Source: Acidobacteriota bacterium (GTDB lineage Bacteria; Acidobacteriota; Terriglobia; Acidiferrales; UBA7541). From it: a stretch of 36,200 nt of DNA. The stretch is taken from contig QHYU01000158.1 of assembly GCA_003224235.1 (NCBI GenBank), positions 1 through 36,200 of the forward strand, read 5' to 3'. Made by a program: the position numbers and the translations under genes. This document shows, in pieces, positions 317-28,357 of this stretch (the stretch's first letter is position 1; every line of letters starts with the position of its first letter). The notes below the pieces were generated by a model that was given only the letters and a program-made list of their open reading frames with translations, did not search any database and had not been told where the DNA came from.

Positions 317-392
317 TGGTGGACGTGGGGGGGCTCGAACCCCCGACCCCCTGCTTGCAAAGCAGATGCTCTCCCAACTGAGCTACACGCCC
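317..392 (-). tRNA. tRNA-Ala (anticodon TGC)
   Basis: Read on the minus strand, a 76-nt cloverleaf is complete. The acceptor stem GGGCGTG pairs with CACGTCC (one G-T wobble). The D arm is GCTC/GAGC. The anticodon stem-loop CTGCTTTGCAAGCAG carries TGC at positions 34-36. The T arm has a G/C-rich stem around GTTCGAG. Discriminator A is followed by an encoded CCA (319-317). The 3' end faces the integrase fragment, so this tRNA is a likely attachment site. Confidence 0.96.
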
Positions 393-18522: not shown

Positions 18523-20688
18523 TCAGGCCTTGCGCAAGTCGGAGGCGCGCACCGGCAGTCGCCGGACGCGCTTGCCGGTGGCCGCGAAGATGGCATTCGC
18601 AACCGCCGGTGCGACAGCCGGCACGCCCGGTTCGCCGACGCCGGTGGGGTGCTCTGTGCTGGGCACGATATAGACTTCGATATCGGGAGCCTCGTTCATG
18701 CGCAGCATGGGGTAGTCGTGGAAGTTGCGTTGCTGGACGCGGCCCCGTTCGAGCGTGATCTCGCCCTTGAGCGCGGCCGTCAGGCCGAAGATGATTCCGC
18801 CCTCCATCTGCGCTACGACCGTATCCGGATTGACGACGCGACCGCAATCAACCGCGCAGACGACGCGGTGCACGCGCACGGTGCCGTCGTCGGCTACTGA
18901 GGCTTCTGCAACCTGGGCGACATAGCTGTCGAAAGAGAAATGCACGGCAATGCCCCGGGCCCGCCCGCCCGGCAAGGGCGCGCCCCACTTCGCTTTGCTG
19001 GCGGCGAGTTCCAGCACACCCAGGTACCGCGGCTGGTGGGCCAACAACGCGCGGCGGAACTCGTACGGGTCTTTGCCTGCGGTGTGGGCCAGCTCGTCCA
19101 GGAAGCTTTCGACGACAAAGCCGGTGTGAGAATGCCCGACAGAGCGCCACCACTGCACCGGTACACCGACTTTGGGGCTGTGGAGATCGACCAAGACGTT
19201 GGGGATCGCGTAGGGTAGCTCCGCCGCACCTTCCACCGATGAGCCATCGATGCCGTTCTTGACCATGACGCTTTCAAACATCGTTCCCGCCAGGATGGAC
19301 TGCCCCACGATCGTGTGCGTCCACGCAACCGGATTTCCGGCTGCATCCAGGCCCGCAGCGAGCCGGTCGTACCACATCGGGCGATACCACCCGCCGCGAA
19401 TGTCGTCTTCGCGAGTCCAGATAACCTTTACTGGGGCCCCGACCGCCTTGGCCACCTCTACGGCTTCGACGACGAAGTCCGAAACCGGATTCGCGCGACG
19501 CCCGAAACCACCCCCGAGGAGTGTGGTGTGAATTTGCACCTGCTCGGGCTTCAGCCCGGCCACGGCGGCGGCCGCAGCCCGGTCCACGGTCTGGAACTGC
19601 GTTCCGGTCCAGATCTCACAGCGGTCTGAGCGCAAGTCCACCAAGCAATTCAAGGGCTCCATCATCGCGTGCGCCAGATAGGGGACTTCGTACTCCGCGG
19701 TGACCTGCTTCGCCGCGCTGGCGAGCGTTTGCGTCGGATCACCATCTTTGCGCGCGACAGCTCCGGGTGTCTTCGCCAGATTCGCGTACTGTTCGCGGAG
19801 GCTTGCGGTCGAAAGCGTTGCGTTCGGGCCCTCCTCCCAGACGATATCCAGCGCATCGCGGCCGAGCTTTGCGGGCCAGAAGCCCGAGGCGACCACCGCA
19901 ACACCCGCCCGCACCGAGACTACGGCTGCTACGCCCGGAACGCTCTTGGCCTTCTCATCGTTGATGCGGACAGCCTTTGCGCCGAAAACCGGCGGCCGCG
20001 CCAGCACCGCTGTGAGCATGCCGGGGATGCGTACATCGAGACCAAATTGCGCCGTGCCGTTGATCTTGGACGGCGTGTCGAGACGATGCGTGGGCTTGCC
20101 GATAAGCTTGTAGTCTTTCGGGTCCTTAAGAACGACTTCTTTCGGCGGCTCCATCTTCACCGCGCTGTCCGCGAGAGCACCGAAAGAGAGCCGCCGGTTG
20201 CTGGCCGCATGGATTACGTAGCCGCTTTCCGCGCGACAGCTTTGCGCATTGACGTTCCAGGTCTGCGCGGCAGCGGCGATCAGCATCATCCGCGCCATGG
20301 CCCCAGCTTTGCGTAGTCGCTCCCACTCCGAGTTGACGCTTGTGCTGCCTCCCGTCATCTGAATGCCGAACACAGCGTGGTTATACGCGGGATCCACTGG
20401 CGCCGATTCCACGCGAATCCTGCTCCAGTCAGCCTCGAGTTCCTCGGCGATGAGCATGGGCATCGACGTGTAAACGCCTTGGCCCATCTCCGCCTTGTTC
20501 ACGATGATCGTCACGCTGTCATCCGTTCCAATCCGGATGAAGGCATTAGGCGCAAAGGTCTCTTTGGCGCGGTCCGTTTCGCTTGTGCCGCTCAGTTCAG
20601 GGAGATAAAAGCTGATCAGCAGGCCGCCGCCAAGAGCCGCTCCCGCCTTGAAAAAATCGCGCCGTCTCATCCCGGTCGCTATGTTCAT
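18523..20688 (-). CDS. iorB: Isoquinoline 1-oxidoreductase-type molybdenum hydroxylase, large (beta) subunit
   Basis: A 721-residue molybdopterin subunit of the xanthine dehydrogenase superfamily. The N-terminus [18 protein letters not shown] looks like a twin-arginine export signal, so the folded enzyme is probably sent to the periplasm together with IorA. Landmarks are [14 protein letters not shown], the Moco-binding [17 protein letters not shown], and near the C-terminus [19 protein letters not shown], whose Glu is the expected catalytic base. Members hydroxylate N-heterocycles or oxidise aldehydes; the substrate is open. The start overlaps the iorA stop (ATGA), so both are translated together. 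Separate MoCo-insertion (XdhC-like) genes are not in the window. Confidence 0.93.
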
Positions 20689-21155
20689 TTCGCACCGCCC
20701 GACGCCATCAGTTGGGCCGCACGGCGGATCGCCCGGCGGATCCGCGGATACGTCCCGCAGCGGCAGATATTGCCCGACATGGCGTCGTCAATGTCGGAAT
20801 CTGTCGGCTTGGAGTTTTCGCGCAGCAGGACGGCGGCACTCATGATCTGTCCCGACTGGCAGTACCCGCATTGAGGCACGTCTTCGGCGATCCAAGCCTG
20901 TTGCAAGGGATGGCTCAGGTCCGCTGAGAGCCCTTCGATGGTGGTGACGATTTTCCCAGCCGCCCTGGAGACCGGTGTGACGCAAGAGCGCACGGCTTCG
21001 CCGTCGATGTGCACCGTACACGCCCCGCACTGCGCCATGCCGCAGCCGTACTTAGTGCCCGCTAGGCCGATGTTTTCGCGGATCACCCACAGCAGCGGCG
21101 TGGCCGGATCCACATCCACGCTGTATTGCCTGCGATTGACGTTGAGTGCGATCAC
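20685..21155 (-). CDS. iorA: Isoquinoline 1-oxidoreductase-type small subunit with two [2Fe-2S] clusters
   Basis: A 156-residue electron-transfer subunit. The plant-type cluster ligands are Cys38, Cys43, Cys46 and Cys58 ([17 protein letters not shown] ... SCV). The second cluster has Cys96, Cys99, Cys131 and Cys133 ([10 protein letters not shown] and [10 protein letters not shown]). It accepts electrons from the molybdenum site of IorB and would pass them to the cytochrome encoded downstream. No export signal of its own is visible, so it probably travels with the Tat-exported IorB. It starts at GTG 21155, eight bases after AAAGGAG. First gene of the unit; a promoter candidate lies at 21256-21285. 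Confidence 0.94.
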
Positions 21156-21255
21156 TTTTGTGGCTCCTTTGCCTGCCTGAATTTCACCTTAGATGATCGG
21201 CTCGACATATCGGTGACATACTGTTGCTTTCAAAAATCACATGGCAAAGGATGGC

Positions 21256-21285
21256 AATCTAGCTGTCTTATGACAATCCTGTCAA
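21256..21285 (-). promoter_or_regulatory. Promoter candidate for the iorAB unit
   Basis: On the minus strand TTGACA (21285-21280) is followed after 18 bp by TAGATT (21261-21256), a perfect -35 and a 4/6 -10. An inverted repeat TGACA-N4-TGTCA (21271-21284) overlaps the -35, which could be an operator. About 100 bp then remain to the iorA start. Confidence 0.5.
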
Positions 21286-21438
21286 CAACCCCGCGGTTTG
21301 ACCCTGATCAGCCCGCTTTCGGAAGCAGGCTCCGTCCTCGATAGCTGTCAAGAACCTCCTAAGCAGGACTCTAGCTTTGCGCTGGGCGCGGCAGCTAGGG
21401 GAGAGAGCTGGTGAATGGTTCTCCCGGTTTCTAGGTTC

Positions 21439-21460
21439 CATTAAAATTATTTATTTGACG
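21439..21460 (+). promoter_or_regulatory. Possible -35/UP region of the ilv leader transcript
   Basis: A strongly AT-rich stretch (CCATTAAAATTATTTA) runs into TTGACG (21455-21460), unlike the GC-rich surroundings. No clear -10 follows at 16-18 bp; CATAAT at 21499-21504 is too far. The start of the leader RNA therefore remains open. Confidence 0.3.
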
Positions 21461-21507
21461 TCGTTCTGGCATTAGAGGTACATGGTTACCTGTTTTAGCA
21501 TAATCTA

Positions 21508-21660
21508 ATGATGCGCAAGGTTGAGTGCGAATCGGTTCACGATAGGCCCATAAGACGGGGCTCTCCGCTTTCGCCCCTGGCATTTCCTGCGTCCTTTGGT
21601 GGCCGCGGTCTGATTACTGAGGTCATTGTAGGCCCTATCCCGCTGATACACAGCGGATAA
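21508..21660 (+). CDS. ilv leader peptide, 50 aa, Leu/Ile/Val-rich end
   Basis: A short ORF of 50 codons begins ATG ATG at 21508/21511 and ends TAA at 21658-21660, 104 bp before ilvB. Its last part reads LITEVIVGPIPLIHSG: eight of the 13 residues 35-47 are Leu, Ile or Val, including the rare codon ATA. Codon-rich tracts for the end product directly before a terminator are the hallmark of attenuator leader peptides of ilv operons. The TAA lies inside attenuator arm 2. No good ribosome binding site is seen; a 9-codon ORF (21482-21508, MVTCFSII) overlaps its ATG and could couple to it. The N-terminal part looks like ordinary sequence, so the true start may be nearer. Confidence 0.65.
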   Translation: MMRKVECESVHDRPIRRGSPLSPLAFPASFGGRGLITEVIVGPIPLIHSG

Positions 21661-21733
21661 CGGCCGGCGAAGAGAAATCCTAAGTCGAAACAAGCCAAAG
21701 GCCGTTATCCAGAGCAAAAGGATAACGGCCTTT
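21631..21733 (+). promoter_or_regulatory. Transcription attenuator of the ilv operon (four-arm switch)
   Basis: Four arms can pair in exclusive ways. Arm 1 GGCCCTATCC (21631-21640) lies in the Leu/Ile/Val codons. Arm 2 GGATAACGGCC (21655-21665) includes the leader stop. Arm 3 GGCCGTTATCC is at 21700-21710. Arm 4 GGATAACGGCC (21720-21730) is identical to arm 2. 1:2 is a pause hairpin with an internal mismatch, 2:3 an 11-bp perfect antiterminator, 3:4 the terminator. A ribosome stalled for lack of charged Leu/Ile/Val-tRNA would cover arm 1 and let 2 pair with 3, so transcription continues into ilvB. The mechanism is inferred from the arrangement. Confidence 0.75.
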
Positions 21734-21734
21734 T
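21697..21734 (+). terminator. Intrinsic terminator arm pair of the ilv leader
   Basis: A 14-bp perfect stem AAAGGCCGTTATCC / GGATAACGGCCTTT (21697-21710 and 21720-21733) with a 9-nt loop. It runs into a short T-rich tail (TTTTGGTCTTC), weaker than a classic U-tract. It stands 30 bp before ilvB and would stop leader transcription when the leader peptide is fully translated. Confidence 0.75.
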
Positions 21735-21764
21735 GGTCTTCAGGAGCAATCGGAGGCTGCACCC

Positions 21765-23525
21765 ATGGAGGCGAACTTGAACTCATCGGCGACCACGGTT
21801 CAGGAAGACTACGCAGCCCACACTCCGCGAGATGTCGTGCGCGGCGCGCGGATCTTGTGCGAGGCGCTCCTCCACGAAGGCGTGGATACCATCTTCGGTT
21901 ATCCCGGCGGCGCGGTGCTCCCCATCTACGACGAACTCGCCAAGATGCGCGGCCACCTGCGGCACATCCTTGCCCGGCACGAACAGGGAGCCGTACACAT
22001 GGCCGAAGGTTATGCCAAGGCGACGGGCAAGGTCGGTGTGGTACTGGTCACCTCGGGACCGGGAGCGACCAACGCGGTCACCGGAATCGCCAATGCTTAT
22101 ATGGATTCAACGCCGCTGGTCGTTTTCACTGGACAGGTGCCGCGGAAACTGATCGGCAGCGACGCCTTCCAGGAAATCGATACCGTCGGCATCACGATGC
22201 CCTGCACGAAATACAACTACTTGGCGCGCAATGCATGCGACCTGGCCGAAATCGTCAAAGAGGCGTTCTACATCGCCGGCACTGGGCGTCCGGGACCTGT
22301 ACTCGTCGATATTCCGAAGGACGTTGCAAATGAGAAGGCGCCGTTCATTTATCCCGAACGCGTGCGGCTGCCCGGTTATCGCCCGAGCGTGCTGGCGGAC
22401 CCCGGGCAGGTGCAGCGAGCTATGGCGAAGATAGGCACAGCGAAGCGCCCCATACTGTACGTGGGCGGCGGCGTCATTCACTCCGGCGGCACAGACGAAC
22501 TGGTGGAACTGGCCGAAAGATTGGGCCTGCCTGTTACTCCCACCCTGATGGGGCTGGGCTGCTTCCCATCCGGCCATCCGTTATCTCTGGGCATGCTCGG
22601 CATGCATGGCTCTTATTGGGCCAACATGGCCATTTCCGAGTCCGACCTGATCATCGCCATTGGCGCGCGATTCGACGATCGTGTCACGGGCGCGGTCGAC
22701 AAGTTTGCTCGGCAAGCAGAGATTATCCAGGTGGACATCGATCCCTCGTCCATCGGCAAGAACGTTCGCGCTCACATCGCTCTGGTCGGAGACGCCAAAA
22801 GCGTCATGCGGCAGATGCTCGAAGCGCTGCCGGAAGAGGCTTGCCGGGACAGCTCTGTGCGCCTCGCCGCGTGGTGGGACCAAATCGAGGCGTGGAAAGT
22901 GCACGCCCCCCTGACTTACGAAAATTCCGACCAAGTGATCAAGCCACAGTTTTTGTGCCAGGAGCTTTATCGCTTGACCCAAGGCAATGCCATCATCGCC
23001 ACCGACGTGGGCCAGCACCAGATGTGGCTAGCGCAGTACTACGGTTTCAAAGGCCCGCGGCAGTCCATCACCTCCGGTGGCCTGGGGACGATGGGCTTCG
23101 GTTTTCCAGCGGCGCTCGGCGCGCAAGTTGCTTTCCCAAACCGCCAGGTCATCGCTTTTGTAGGCGACGGCGGCTTTCAGATGACCGCGCAGGAACTGGC
23201 CACCGCCGTTCAATATAAGACCAACATCAAGATCGTGGTGATGAACAACAACTACCTCGGGATGGTCCGCCAGTGGCAGGAGCTCTTCTACGACCACGCT
23301 TACTCGGCCGTGGCGATGGAATGGTTGCCCAACTTCGTCAAACTCGCCGAGGCGTACGGCGCCGTCGGGTTGCGCGCAACGCGGCCTGAAGAATTGCAGG
23401 GTGTGCTCGAGCGAGGACTCTCCACCCCGGGGGTGGTGGTGATGGATATCGTCGTGGCGCTCGAGGAAAACGTCTATCCGATGATCCCGCCCGGCGCGGG
23501 GCTCAAGGAGATGGTGCTCCGGTGA
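21765..23525 (+). CDS. ilvB: Acetolactate synthase, large (catalytic) subunit
   Basis: A 586-residue ThDP-, FAD- and Mg-dependent enzyme of valine, leucine and isoleucine synthesis. It condenses two pyruvates to acetolactate, or pyruvate and 2-oxobutyrate to acetohydroxybutyrate. The N-terminal domain shows FGYPGGAVLPIYDEL and RHEQGAVHMAEGYAKATGK with the ThDP-activating Glu. FIYPERVRLPGYRP marks the central FAD domain. The C-terminal ThDP motif is GDGGFQMTAQELATAVQ...NIKIVVMNNN. Start ATG 21765 has CGGAGG eight bases upstream. An extension of about 20 residues precedes the conserved start (VRGARILCEAL). It leads the operon, immediately behind the attenuator, and overlaps ilvN by GTGA. Confidence 0.97.
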   Translation: MEANLNSSATTVQEDYAAHTPRDVVRGARILCEALLHEGVDTIFGYPGGAVLPIYDELAKMRGHLRHILARHEQGAVHMAEGYAKATGKVGVVLVTSGPGATNAVTGIANAYMDSTPLVVFTGQVPRKLIGSDAFQEIDTVGITMPCTKYNYLARNACDLAEIVKEAFYIAGTGRPGPVLVDIPKDVANEKAPFIYPERVRLPGYRPSVLADPGQVQRAMAKIGTAKRPILYVGGGVIHSGGTDELVELAERLGLPVTPTLMGLGCFPSGHPLSLGMLGMHGSYWANMAISESDLIIAIGARFDDRVTGAVDKFARQAEIIQVDIDPSSIGKNVRAHIALVGDAKSVMRQMLEALPEEACRDSSVRLAAWWDQIEAWKVHAPLTYENSDQVIKPQFLCQELYRLTQGNAIIATDVGQHQMWLAQYYGFKGPRQSITSGGLGTMGFGFPAALGAQVAFPNRQVIAFVGDGGFQMTAQELATAVQYKTNIKIVVMNNNYLGMVRQWQELFYDHAYSAVAMEWLPNFVKLAEAYGAVGLRATRPEELQGVLERGLSTPGVVVMDIVVALEENVYPMIPPGAGLKEMVLR

Positions 23526-24094
23526 GGCGCACGCTTTCCATCTGGGTCGAGAATCGGAGCGGGGAGCTCTCGCGTATCGTCGGTCTGTTCGCCGCGCGCG
23601 GCTACAACATCGAAAGCCTGACGGTGGCCGACACGCCCCAGCGGAACATTTCGCTGGTTACCGTGGTAACGACGGGCACCGATCACGCCATCGAGCAGAT
23701 CGTCAAACGGGTGGACAAGCAGGTGTGCGTCCTGAAAGCCCTGGATGTCACCGACCTCCGGCATGCCGAGCGCGAGATAGCGGTGGTGAGCGTGAAACTC
23801 AATGTCGGCCCGGCACTCCGAGAAGTTCTGCAACTCGTGGCGCGGAATCGTTTGAAGCTCGTGGACGTTTCGCAGGACACCCTCACCCTCGAAGCCACCG
23901 GAGATTGCGCCGCCATCAACGAAATCATCGCGCTGCTCAGCTCCCTTGGCATTCGGGATATTGTGCGCAGCGGCGTGGTGGCCGTGGCCGATCTTCCGCC
24001 GCGCGCGGCTGGTCAGGAAGCCCTCCACCCGGCAATGAACCTTGGCTCAGCCGTGCCCGGATTTTCAGACTCCGCCAGCAAAGCCGAACTCTAA
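23522..24094 (+). CDS. ilvN: Acetolactate synthase, small regulatory subunit
   Basis: A 190-residue partner of IlvB that raises its activity and carries the valine feedback site. An ACT domain covers residues ~3-75 (TLSIWVENRSGELSRIVGLFAARGYNIESLTVA). The C-terminal domain follows (~80-165), with EREIAVVSVKLN and a second ferredoxin-like half. The C-terminal ~30 residues (PPRAAGQEALHPAMNLGSAV...) are a loose tail not typical of the family. Translation starts at GTG 23522, overlapping the ilvB TGA (GTGA), so the two subunits are made in step. IlvC follows 9 bp later. Confidence 0.95.
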   Translation: MRRTLSIWVENRSGELSRIVGLFAARGYNIESLTVADTPQRNISLVTVVTTGTDHAIEQIVKRVDKQVCVLKALDVTDLRHAEREIAVVSVKLNVGPALREVLQLVARNRLKLVDVSQDTLTLEATGDCAAINEIIALLSSLGIRDIVRSGVVAVADLPPRAAGQEALHPAMNLGSAVPGFSDSASKAEL

Positions 24095-24103
24095 GGAGGA
24101 GAG

Positions 24104-25120
24104 ATGCAAGTCTATTACGATAGAGACGCAGACCGCAGTTATCTCAAGAAAAAAAGAATCGCCGTCATCGGATATGGGTCCCAGGGGCACGCCCAAGCGA
24201 ATAACCTGAAAGACTCGGACTACGACGTCGTCGTAGGGCTGCGGGCGCAAAGCCCGTCATGGGCGAAAGCAGAGAAAGCCGGGTTGCGCGTTGTGCCGGT
24301 GGCGCAGGCGGCGGCCGAAGGCGACATCGTTATGATGCTGGTGCCCGACGAACTCGCGCCCGAGGTGTATGCGAGTGAAATTGCGCCGTCCATGAAGGCC
24401 GGCAAGTATCTGGCCTTCTCGCACGGCTTTTCGATCCATTACCGGTTCGTCCGGCCCCCCGAAGAGGTCAGCGTGTTCATGGTCGCGCCCAAAGGCCCGG
24501 GCCATCTGGTGCGGCACGAGTACACCCGAGGCGCGGGTGTTCCCTGTCTGTTCGCAGTGCATCAGGACCCGAAGGGGGACGCGAGGCAAGTTGCGCTGGC
24601 GTACGCAAGCGCCATTGGTGGCGGCCGCGCGGGCGTAATTGAAACGACTTTTCGCGAAGAGACCGAAACCGATCTATTCGGCGAACAGGCCGTGCTCTGC
24701 GGTGGGCTGACCTCGCTGATCAAGGCTGGATTTGAAACCCTCGTCGAAGCCGGATATGCCCCGGAGATGGCTTACTTTGAATGCTTGCACGAGATGAAGC
24801 TGATTGTGGACTTGATGTACGAGGGCGGGATTTCTGAAATGCGCTACTCGATTTCCAACACCGCGCAGTATGGAGATATGACGCGCGGGCCGCGCGTGAT
24901 CGGCCCCGAAACCAAGCGCCGCATGTGCCACTTGCTGTCGGAGATCCGATCCGGCGATTTCGCTCGCGAGTGGATGGAAGAACATGCGAACGGCCGCTCG
25001 CGATTCCGGCAGCTGACGGAGGAAGGAAAACAACATCCGATTGAAGTGGTCGGCGGGCGCCTGAGGGCGATGATGCCCTGGCTCTCGGAAAAACGCTTGG
25101 TGGATAAAGCTCGAAATTGA
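24104..25120 (+). CDS. ilvC: Ketol-acid reductoisomerase (class I)
   Basis: A 338-residue enzyme that isomerises and reduces acetolactate or acetohydroxybutyrate to the dihydroxy acids with NAD(P)H and Mg. The Rossmann region is [28 protein letters not shown] (19-46). The Mg/substrate segments are [52 protein letters not shown] and the C-terminal catalytic Glu region. Length and single knotted domain mark class I. The cofactor loop has Arg and Ser residues (LRAQSPS) that favour NADPH; inference. ATG 24104 follows AAGGAGGAGAG, the best ribosome binding site of the operon. Confidence 0.97.
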
Positions 25121-25131
25121 GGGGGAGAAGA

Positions 25132-25506
25132 ATGGGCTTCTATGATTGGGACAAAATCAAGCCGGAAGAACTGACCAGGCTTTCTCGCTCGAGGATCGCC
25201 CGAAGTGAAAACGTGATGCTGGCTGAGGTTGAGGTCCGGCGCGGCACTTCCACCCCGTGGCATAGCCACGAAAATGAAGAACTGGTCATCGTGCTGAAGG
25301 GAGCGTGGCGATTCTACTTGCCCTCCGGTGAGCTGACTCTCGAGGCCAATCAAATGCTTTCCATTCCCGCGGGGGTCGAGCACTCTTCCGAGGTGCTGGA
25401 AGACACTTTGGCGCTCAATATTTGCACCCCTACCAAGGTTGCGCGCCGGAACGATGAACAGCAAACTTTCGAGCACGATCCGGACCAGTCGCTGTGGGCG
25501 GTCTGA
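25132..25506 (+). CDS. Small cupin-domain protein inside the ilv operon
   Basis: A 124-residue single-domain cupin. The first cupin motif reads TPWHSHENEELVIVLKGAWRFYL, with His, His and Glu as expected metal ligands. The second is IPAGVEHSSEV with the fourth His. The metal site is therefore complete, but the reaction is unknown; cupins range from isomerases and dioxygenases to simple sensors. ATG 25132 has GGGGGAGAAG upstream and is preferred to an in-frame ATG at 25117 that overlaps the ilvC stop. It lies between ilvC and ilvE with 11- and 21-bp gaps, so it is co-transcribed with branched-chain synthesis genes. Confidence 0.85.
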   Translation: MGFYDWDKIKPEELTRLSRSRIARSENVMLAEVEVRRGTSTPWHSHENEELVIVLKGAWRFYLPSGELTLEANQMLSIPAGVEHSSEVLEDTLALNICTPTKVARRNDEQQTFEHDPDQSLWAV

Positions 25507-25527: not shown

Positions 25528-26577
25528 ATGTCCTTTGAGCAGGCCACATGGGTGTGGAAAAACGGCGAGTTGATTCCCTGGAAGGATGCCACCGTGCACG
25601 TCTCCGCTCACGCCTTGCACTACGGTAGCGGCGTTCTTGAGGGCATCAGGTGTTATGACACGGCTGAAGGACCTGCCGTGTTCCGCCTTGACGCACACCT
25701 GGATCGGCTCTATGACTCCGCTTCGGTTTACGGAATGGAGATCCCGTATAACAGAGCACAGCTTGCTGAAGCTGTGTGCGAGGTGATCCGCGGCAATGGC
25801 TTTCGAAGCTGCTATGTCCGCCCCATCTGCTTCTTCGGAAGCGCTAGCCTTGCGCTGAACCCCCAGAGGTGTCCGGTCGAAGTTGTGATCTTCGCCTGGC
25901 CCTGGGAAACCTACCTAGGCAACAAAGCCCTGGAGGCCGGCGTGCGCGTGACCCTCTCTCCGTGGGTGAAGTTCCATTCCCGCATGCTGCCCACCACGGC
26001 GAAAGCGTGCGGGCAATATGTCAATTCGATTCTGGCCGTGCGCGAAGCCATGGGCCGGGGCTACGACGAAGCCCTGCTGCTCGCCTCCGACGGTTCGATT
26101 GCCGAAGGATCGGGAGAAAACATCTTCTTGGTTCACGGGGAAAAGCTTCTGACCAACGACGAACGGCACTCGATCTTGCTGGGGGTCACACGCGATGCGA
26201 TAATCGAAATCGCCTGCAATCTGGGCCTCCCTGTTGAAATCAGAGCAATCCAAGTGAACGATCTGCTCTCCGCCGACGAAGCGTTCTTCACGGGCACAGC
26301 CGCCGAAGTGACGCCCATCCGCGAGGTGGATGGCCAGCCCATCGGCAGCGGCGCACGCGGGCCGCTGACCGCCAAGATCCAGCAGGCATTCTTCGCGGCC
26401 ACCTCGGGGCGCGACCTCCAACATAGGCACTGGCTACATCTGGTCGCTTCAGGGCCGTCGAAACCCGTCCCCGCAACCGAAGCGACTTCGCTTAGCGAGA
26501 CTCAACGCAGGGAAATAGAGCACCGGGAGGGGTCAGCGGCGATGGCGAGGGAGGCGGCGCATTGCGACCCCGCTTAG
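25528..26577 (+). CDS. ilvE: Branched-chain amino acid aminotransferase
   Basis: A 349-residue PLP enzyme of fold type IV that gives valine, leucine and isoleucine from their 2-oxo acids with glutamate. Motifs are [18 protein letters not shown] near the start, the PLP lysine Lys159 in [38 protein letters not shown], and [14 protein letters not shown] with the phosphate site. The family normally ends near residue 305-310 (here QHRHWLHLV). The remaining ~40 residues ([29 protein letters not shown]...) look like an unstructured extension. ATG 25528 follows the cupin gene by 21 bp; the upstream site is only a weak AGGG. Confidence 0.95.
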
Positions 26578-26614: not shown

Positions 26615-28357
26615 ATGACAGGCGACGGAAAACATCGCAGTCGCGTTCTCCTCGACGGTCCTCGCCGAGCGCCGGCACGATCTTATTTCAAGGCGATTGG
26701 CTTCACGGACGAAGACCTGACGCGACCATTGGTGGGCATCGCCAACACCTGGATCGAAACCATGCCGTGTAACTTCCACTTGCGCCACCTGGCGGAGAAG
26801 GTCAAAGCCGGCGTGCGCGCCGCCGGGGGCACGCCGATGGAGTTCAACACGATCGCCATCAGCGACGGCGAAACGATGGGCACCGAGGGAATGAAAACCT
26901 CGCTTGTAAGCCGCGAGGTTATTGCCGACTCGATTGAATTGGTGGGTCGGGCGTACATGTTCGATGCCATCGTGGCGCTTGTGGGCTGCGATAAGACGAT
27001 TCCCGGCGCGGCGATGGGACTGATCCGCCTGAATGTGCCAAGCCTTGTGCTCTACGGCGGCTCGATCCAGCCGGGTCGCTTTCAGGGCCGCGACGTTACC
27101 ATCCAGGATGTTTTTGAGGCTGTCGGCGCTCATGCGGCCGGCAAAATGTCCGATGAGGATCTTCTGGCGCTGGAAAATGCCGCGTGCCCCGGGGCAGGAG
27201 CCTGTGGCGGTCAGTACACGGCCAACACCATGGCCCTGGCACTGGAGTTCCTCGGGCTGTCCCCGCTGGGAACAGCCAGCGTGCCCGCTACGCATCCACT
27301 CAAGGACGAAGTGGGCTTTCACTGCGGTCAACTCGTGATGGACCTCTTGCGGAGACAGATTCAACCGTCTCACATCCTGACCCGCAAAGCTCTGGAAAGC
27401 GCCATCGCCGGCGTAGCTGCGACCGGAGGCTCCACAAATGCCGTGCTTCATCTGCTGGCTTTGGCCAGCGAAGCGAACGTGGAGTTGCGCCTCGAAGACT
27501 TCGATGCCATTAGCGCCCGCACCCCGCTGCTTGCCGACCTGAAACCTGCCGGCCGGTTCACCGCCGTGGATCTTTATAAGGCCGGGGGCAATCAGCTCGT
27601 AGCAAGAAAACTCCTGGAGGCAAAACTCATCGATGGGAGTCATATGACCGCCAGCGGAAGAACTCTCGAGCAAGAGGCGCTGCGAGCAAGCGAGCGCGAG
27701 GGTCAAGAAGTGGTGCGGCCATGCAGCAACCCGCTGAAACGGACGGGAGGGCTGGTGGTTTTGAAGGGCAACCTCGCTCCGGAAGGGAGCGTGGCCAAAA
27801 TTACCAGTCACGAGAACCTCTATCATAGGGGCCCGGCCCGAGTATTTGATCGCGAAGAAGACGCCATGGAAGCCGTCACCAGGGGAGCAATTCAAAAAGG
27901 CGACGTCGTTGTCATCCGGTACGAAGGCCCGAAGGGAGGGCCCGGGATGAGAGAGATGCTCGGCGTCACTGCCGCGCTCGTTGGCGCTGGTCTGGGCGAG
28001 GATGTGGTGTTGGTGACCGATGGGCGTTTTAGCGGCGCGACACGCGGCCTGATGGTCGGCCATGCAGCTCCCGAGGCAGCTTGTGGAGGACCCATTGCCG
28101 TCGTGCAACCGGGCGACACTATCGTTTTTGACATCGAGGCAAGGAGCTTGCGCGTGGAACTGAGCGCCGAGGAGCTACGCGCTCGGCTTCGCCGATGGAA
28201 GGCTCCTGAACCGCGCTATAAGTCTGGCGCGCTCGCCAAGTATGCCACGCTCGTTTCCTCCGCAGCGGAGGGAGCTGTTACGCGCCCCAACTTTGAGCAT
28301 TTCGGCGCAACAGGACTCGGCCCGCTCGCCGGTCAAACACTTTCCCAAGCGGAATGA
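26615..28357 (+). CDS. ilvD: Dihydroxy-acid dehydratase
   Basis: A 580-residue Fe-S enzyme that dehydrates 2,3-dihydroxy acids to 2-oxo acids, the step before IlvE. Cluster-region cysteines are Cys52 ([10 protein letters not shown]-like context), Cys125 (GCDKTIPG) and Cys191/Cys197 ([17 protein letters not shown]). [31 protein letters not shown] and the C-terminal [22 protein letters not shown] are further signatures. The cluster type ([2Fe-2S] or [4Fe-4S]) cannot be told. ATG 26615 follows CAGAGG. The stop TGA overlaps a possible ATG of the next ORF. It completes the pathway set ilvB-N-C-E-D; no leu genes are in the window. Confidence 0.97.

Follow-up and report, generated by a model that had tools for sequence, protein, structure and literature searches.

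That leader peptides can attenuate ilv operons has long been known (PMC1183508, PMC10272879, PMC1262725). For the enteric ilvGMEDA and ilvBN operons, PMC1183508 describes leaders with a run of cognate codons, mutually exclusive RNA arms and a terminator before the first gene. The Corynebacterium ilvB-II, ilvB-OMG and Leptospira ilvB motifs likewise contain an upstream ORF rich in codons for branched-chain amino acids (BCAA) 5′ of ilvB. Attenuation was proposed or tested for these motifs, which occur in other bacterial groups and have structures other than the one described here (PMC10272879). The S. meliloti trp leader peptide peTrpL also belongs to an amino acid attenuator and additionally acts in trans (PMC7298713); the data on the present locus do not bear on trans action.

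The locus studied here lies in the window, which is the whole stretch of 36,200 nucleotides that was analysed. It shares the codon run, the mutually exclusive arms and the position of the predicted terminator with the enteric ilv attenuators. In contrast to these, its leader comprises 50 codons without a visible ribosome-binding site, and the arm that holds the stop codon is an exact copy of arm 4. The sequence evidence makes it very probable that the element controls the ilvBNC-cupin-ED operon by ribosome-mediated (leader-peptide) transcription attenuation. It would likely act as a switch by which the leucine, isoleucine and valine genes are read only when these amino acids are scarce. The kind of mechanism is known and the RNA family appears to be undescribed. 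A literature search returned no description of such leaders for this bacterial group, with a mention in Lopatovskaya 2010 being possible.

An intergenic region of 609 bases separates the divergent gene of an Fe-S oxidoreductase (20685–21155, minus strand) from ilvB. The operon continues with ilvN, ilvC, a cupin protein gene, ilvE and ilvD (Table 1). The cupin-domain gene is thereby placed between ilvC and ilvE. The consensus scan listed no plus-strand promoter in 21156–21764. The IlvB of the window was equally close to deltaproteobacterial IlvB (58–59%) and to most IlvB of its own class.

Table 1. Positions of the leader elements and operon genes in the window.
Feature	Position	Strand	Basis
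Possible promoter TTGACG-17-GTACAT, weak −10	21455–21483	+	by eye; absent from the consensus scan list
Leader peptide ORF, 50 codons, end LITEVIVGPIPLIHSG	21508–21660	+	sequence; related leaders
Control codons CTG ATT ... GTC ATT GTA ... ATC ... CTG ATA, 8 Ile/Leu/Val	21610–21648	+	sequence; biased codon choice of related leaders
Arm 1 GGCCCTATCCCGCTG, partner of arm 2	21631–21645	+	fold; 1:2 matched-partner test
Arm 2 CAGCGGATAACGGCC, holds leader stop TAA (21658–21660); core 21655–21665 equals arm 4	21651–21665	+	sequence; 2:3 co-variation
Arm 3 GGCCGTTATCC	21700–21710	+	sequence; co-variation in relatives
Arm 4 GGATAACGGCC, predicted terminator hairpin with arm 3	21720–21730	+	sequence; fold; co-variation
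Short interrupted U-tract TTTTGGTC	21731–21738	+	sequence
Likely ilvB ribosome-binding site GGAGG	21752–21756	+	by eye
ilvB, acetolactate synthase large subunit	21765–23525	+	TIGR00118, E 1.1e-251
ilvN, small subunit	23522–24094	+	NF008864/TIGR00119
ilvC, ketol-acid reductoisomerase	24104–25120	+	NF004017, E 2.6e-166
Cupin-domain protein gene	25117–25506	+	PF07883, E 5.4e-11
ilvE, branched-chain aminotransferase	25528–26577	+	TIGR01122
ilvD, dihydroxy-acid dehydratase	26615–28357	+	TIGR00110

The 50-codon ORF reported in a preliminary description of the sequence was present. It opens with ATG ATG, closes with TAA and translates to MMRKVECESVHDRPIRRGSPLSPLAFPASFGGRGLITEVIVGPIPLIHSG. The start coordinate 21482 given there for the whole element is merely an out-of-frame ATG and marks no feature. 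Ile, Leu and Val account for 8 of the last 16 codons and for 5 of the first 34, in agreement with the earlier remark that the N-terminal part is unbiased. The lack of a good ribosome-binding site, also remarked on before, was borne out, with none visible in front of the ATG at 21508. A short ORF with a run of cognate codons directly 5′ of BCAA genes, as found here, is one of the features by which ribosome-mediated ilv transcription attenuators are recognised.

Two further such features lie in the RNA arms. The antiterminator (2:3) and the terminator (3:4) are mutually exclusive, and a protector hairpin (1:2) has its arm 1 inside the control codons. As the preliminary description had stated, the stop codon is located inside arm 2, the arm 2 core matches arm 4 at 11 of 11 positions and arm 3 is the exact complement of both. 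The minimum-energy fold of 21600–21745, a calculation that had been proposed as a check, contained both the 1:2 hairpin and the 3:4 terminator. Its energy was −60.4 kcal/mol, compared with −39.96 ± 3.86 kcal/mol for shuffled sequences (z −5.3). The 1:2 hairpin in this fold consists of GGCC.UAUCC.GCUG paired with CAGCGGAUA..GGCC, a longer stretch than the pairing between the BCAA codons and arm 2 described earlier.

When both strands of the 36.2-kb window were scanned with a detector for leader, terminator and alternative pairing, a single site was found, the one described here. The intergenic region was shuffled 3000 times with dinucleotides preserved; 17 shuffles passed the loose criterion and none matched the observed strength. 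The leader ORF, the arms and the codon run are confirmed as real. These results also concern a rival explanation, namely a plain intrinsic terminator or a chance inverted repeat between divergent genes, with a short ORF that is Ile/Leu/Val-rich by accident. Short GC-rich hairpins are common, and the weak U-tract and the lack of a visible ribosome-binding site would fit such an origin. It is nevertheless highly improbable, given the shuffle result, the absence of any upstream gene on either strand that terminates here, since the flanking genes are divergent, and the co-variation with arm 3, in relatives, of arm 2, an arm dispensable for a terminator.

In the attenuator reading, RNA polymerase would synthesise the leader while a ribosome translates the ORF. 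With ample charged Ile, Leu and Val tRNA, the ribosome would get to the stop codon in arm 2 and mask this arm, and the 3:4 terminator would form about 35 nt before ilvB. With these amino acids scarce, the ribosome would stall on the codon run over arm 1 and free arm 2, which would take the emerging arm 3; no terminator would then form and the operon would be read. If the leader were left untranslated, the 1:2 pairing would allow the terminator to form. Folding with the ribosome at different positions, calculated with an assumed footprint for a transcript ending just past arm 3, gave 7.9–10 expected 2:3 pairs for positions 21610–21640, 1.8 for 21646 and none for 21649 or the stop codon. The calculation used positions of arms 3 and 4 that are shifted by one base (21701–21711 and 21719–21729), which should have little effect. 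Based on these pair counts, a ribosome stalled at any of six of the eight control codons would promote antitermination, and one that reaches the end would favour the terminator. Equilibrium folding of the full-length leader always gave the terminator at any ribosome position, so antitermination would have to be kinetic. Kinetic switching is usual for leader-peptide attenuators.

The U-tract is a weak point. It is short, as had been conceded in the preliminary description, and follows a perfect hairpin that was not listed by the consensus terminator scan. Longer U-tracts were found in relatives belonging to family f7, where a hairpin of like kind is followed by at least five U. In several leaders of genus g6, the U-tracts are late or broken. 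The g6 leaders and the poor U-tract of the window would suit a leader peptide that exerts control via ilvB translation or Rho and not via an intrinsic terminator. We regard this as very improbable, considering the hairpins with U-tracts in f7 and the position of arm 4, which ends about 20 nt before the ilvB GGAGG and leaves it uncovered.

Known RNA families were searched with Rfam. At the gathering score, the only match in the window was a tRNA gene far from the leader (320–392, minus strand, RF00005). At E ≤ 1, the sole match in 21400–21800 was a chance one with E 0.64. No family, including those of leader or ilvB motifs, matched the window leader or any of 12 related loci at the gathering score. 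T-boxes control ilv operons in other phyla, and a tRNA-binding T-box or another metabolite riboswitch would be conceivable on these grounds. The T-box family model was not matched, however, and what is conserved is a run of codons together with a stop codon inside arm 2, which makes a riboswitch of this kind extremely unlikely.

IlvB was searched in 61 and then in 399 genomes and the upstream regions were read. The class probably falls within Acidobacteriota, since a 16S start sequence was present in 14 of 61 of its genomes, though absent from the window's own genome. The preliminary description had named the loss of arms or codon run in related genomes as evidence against it; a conserved codon run and conserved arms were found. 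Many genomes of the class have a leader with an Ile/Leu/Val-rich end 5′ of ilvB or ilvD, with the stop codon in or beside arm 2 and an arm 3 able to pair with arm 2 or arm 4. The detector accepted 17 of 111 ilvB upstream regions including the window, compared with 4 of 1110 shuffles and none of 111 reverse complements; three of 114 regions were too short to be counted. A stricter version accepted 10 of 112 regions, none of 560 shuffles and none of 112 reverse complements. Visible leaders were missed by the first upstream scan and the stricter detector because of the chosen ilvB start and the U-tract cut-off, and the looser detector still misses many (e.g. L084, L085, L116, L166, L181, L187 and L193).

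Most f7 leaders end alike, with an Ile/Val run followed by GPA and the stop codon, and the GGCCCCGCC before the stop pairs with GGCGGGG of arm 3. In the f7 ilvB upstream regions L136 and L153, a leader was not visible by eye. L112, from the genome whose IlvB is closest, has GGA-TGA-TGGCC where the window has GGA-TAA-CGGCC. In genus g6, which belongs to the window's own family, the loci that were read have the same arrangement 5′ of ilvD, with ilvB next. There, 12 of 32 ilvD upstream regions passed the detector, two of them being second copies (L261 and L262). Arm 2 could pair with arm 3 at 8–11 of 11 positions and resembled arm 4 in 18 of 32 regions examined, a count that includes the window and L112 and omits second copies. 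The stop codon was at the same place in 17 of these 18. In many other genomes, ilvD or an apparent ilvC is directly 5′ of ilvB and a leader is absent there. The window's genus is represented by a single further genome, G001 (80% complete), which showed no such leader 5′ of its ilvB. This ilvB is diverged and has a different context.

Co-variation of the arms was assessed in a matched-partner test with 28 leaders, in which the duplex energy of each arm with its own partner was compared with that of the partners from all others. Seven of eight leaders added by eye were dropped from this set for lack of a terminator recognised by the script. In 2:3 (z −6.7), 3:4 (z −11.2) and 1:2 (z −4.7), none of the 5000 permutations did as well as the own partners. 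The control pairing 1:3 showed no species matching in the 28 leaders, with 1743 of 5000 permutations as good. For the window, the own partner ranked first of 28 in 1:2, 2:3 and 3:4 and 28th in the control 1:3. The result persisted when each genus contributed a single leader (n = 21), when the window was left out (n = 27; 1 of 5000 for 1:2) and in family f7 alone (n = 18; 2 of 5000 for 2:3). The controls 1:3 and 2:4 had no such effect in the subsets, the lowest value being 181 of 5000 for 1:3 in f7 alone.

Alignment A1 held 27 leaders, after exclusion of four of 31 detector matches (three of another architecture and one spurious, L115), and its terminator had kept double changes at 6 of 11 pairs. 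In alignment A2, with 18 family-type leaders, 97.5% of the cells were paired in the terminator, with three double-change pairs, and 85.9% in the antiterminator, with two. The 2:3 count is lowered by row L112, which is misaligned by three columns. A 2:3 control slid by −3 columns reached an equal covariation score (0.116) with only 57.7% of cells paired. One of the 2:3 double-change pairs joins the middle base of the stop codon (TGA/TAA) to C/T in arm 3, with 16 GC and 2 AU. The ilv attenuation geometry proposed in the preliminary description is supported by the conserved leaders, by the co-variation of 1:2, 2:3 and 3:4 between genomes and by a stop codon that, in the closest architecture, changes with its partner in arm 3.

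Codon choice in the 28 leaders differed from that in ilvB of the same genomes. GTA made up 72 of 126 Val codons in the leaders and 48 of 689 in ilvB, ATT 57 of 98 and 101 of 464 Ile codons, and CTT 13 of 32 and 56 of 698 Leu codons, respectively; the leader counts are phylogenetically non-independent. Plain base composition does not explain this bias, since A/T endings occurred in 157 of 249 BCAA codons and, within these leaders, in 36 of the 141 remaining codons. The window shows the bias weakly, with GTA as one of the two Val codons of the run. Biased codon choice is given as a condition for starvation sensitivity in PMC1183508, and the strong GTA/ATT/CTT bias would be a natural test of this theory of starvation-sensitive codons.

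Covariance models were used to search for the element beyond the ilvB upstream regions. Model R2 was built from 17 leaders with the window left out. Its best match in the window was 21622–21743, at full length with 25.7 bits and E 5.6e-7. In the whole-genome searches, which had stricter filters, the window's own genome was without a match at E ≤ 0.001, although the search of the window alone gave one. R2 matched 59 of 399 class genomes, of which 31 belong to genus g6, and 33 of 247 genomes sampled from the phylum. Among 20 R2 phylum loci returned, 15 had ilvB, ilvN, ilvC or ilvD downstream within the locus. The other five were L292 to L295 and L301. Of these, L294 (G549) has a Thr/Ile-rich leader (TTIVITTTT) 5′ of an aspartokinase gene. 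This leader, MQTHPSAATTIVITTTTCGVPRG, carries the same arms and looks like a thr attenuator on a shared scaffold. The R2 loci L292 and L295 are 5′ of a LysR-type regulator and an MFS transporter, respectively.

For model R1, built with the window included, E values of 0.01 or below were obtained in 127 of 399 class genomes. About 95 of these, counted by eye, were at E ≤ 1e-8; weak R1 matches alone are untrustworthy. In the phylum, it matched 16 of 247 genomes at E ≤ 0.001. Twenty R1 loci were read. Besides acetolactate synthase, the genes downstream included ilvN (in L247 called by eye, without an NCBIfam match), citramalate synthase, threonine dehydratase and ilvD. Three loci were rejected as apparent chance matches, namely L266 (nitrite/sulphite reductase domains), L257 (TPR protein) and L258, a near copy of L257.

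The element appears to recur through the phylum and, besides ilvB and ilvD, before ilvN, cimA, ilvA and an aspartokinase gene. Tentatively, and with somewhat more doubt than confidence on our part, these leaders might be one homologous scaffold that was moved before different operons throughout the phylum, with the leader peptide recoded to fit each. It would be defined by a stop codon in GGA-UGA/UAA-YGGC, an arm 3 of GGCC(A/G)U(C/U)AUCC and an arm 4 that is a near copy of arm 2. Its operons would be those of ilvB, ilvD, ilvN, citramalate synthase, threonine dehydratase, pheA-ilv and aspartokinase with a Thr/Ile leader. If true, the scaffold would be a main sensor of amino acid starvation in the phylum, as yet without a name. 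The same RNA architecture before several amino acid operons makes the moving and recoding of a leader-peptide switch testable.

Several other upstream regions were noted. A like leader is present 5′ of a gene for prephenate dehydratase, with ilvD (L278/L291) or ilvB (L296) as the next gene. A leader match elsewhere in the phylum (L281) is directly 5′ of a gene that resembles a cupin gene by eye. Genus g4, of the same family, has a different attenuator architecture 5′ of ilvB with a leader ending in IVVVRLVCASxPGGH before the stop codon (L083, L084, L085, L116, L117, L119, L126, L131, L150 and L182). It consists of a GAGCTGA..AAGCTC hairpin and a CCCACC..GGTGGG terminator, and the 5′ part of the terminator can pair with the leader end. 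Family f6 (L214, L215 and L216) has ilvB without such a leader; near the start there is instead a palindrome of the type ACCGACCGGTCGGT that resembles a repressor operator. Very Ile/Leu-rich short ORFs are located 5′ of ilvB in L036, L039, L046 and L051, from MAGs of Balneolaeota and Ignavibacteria type.
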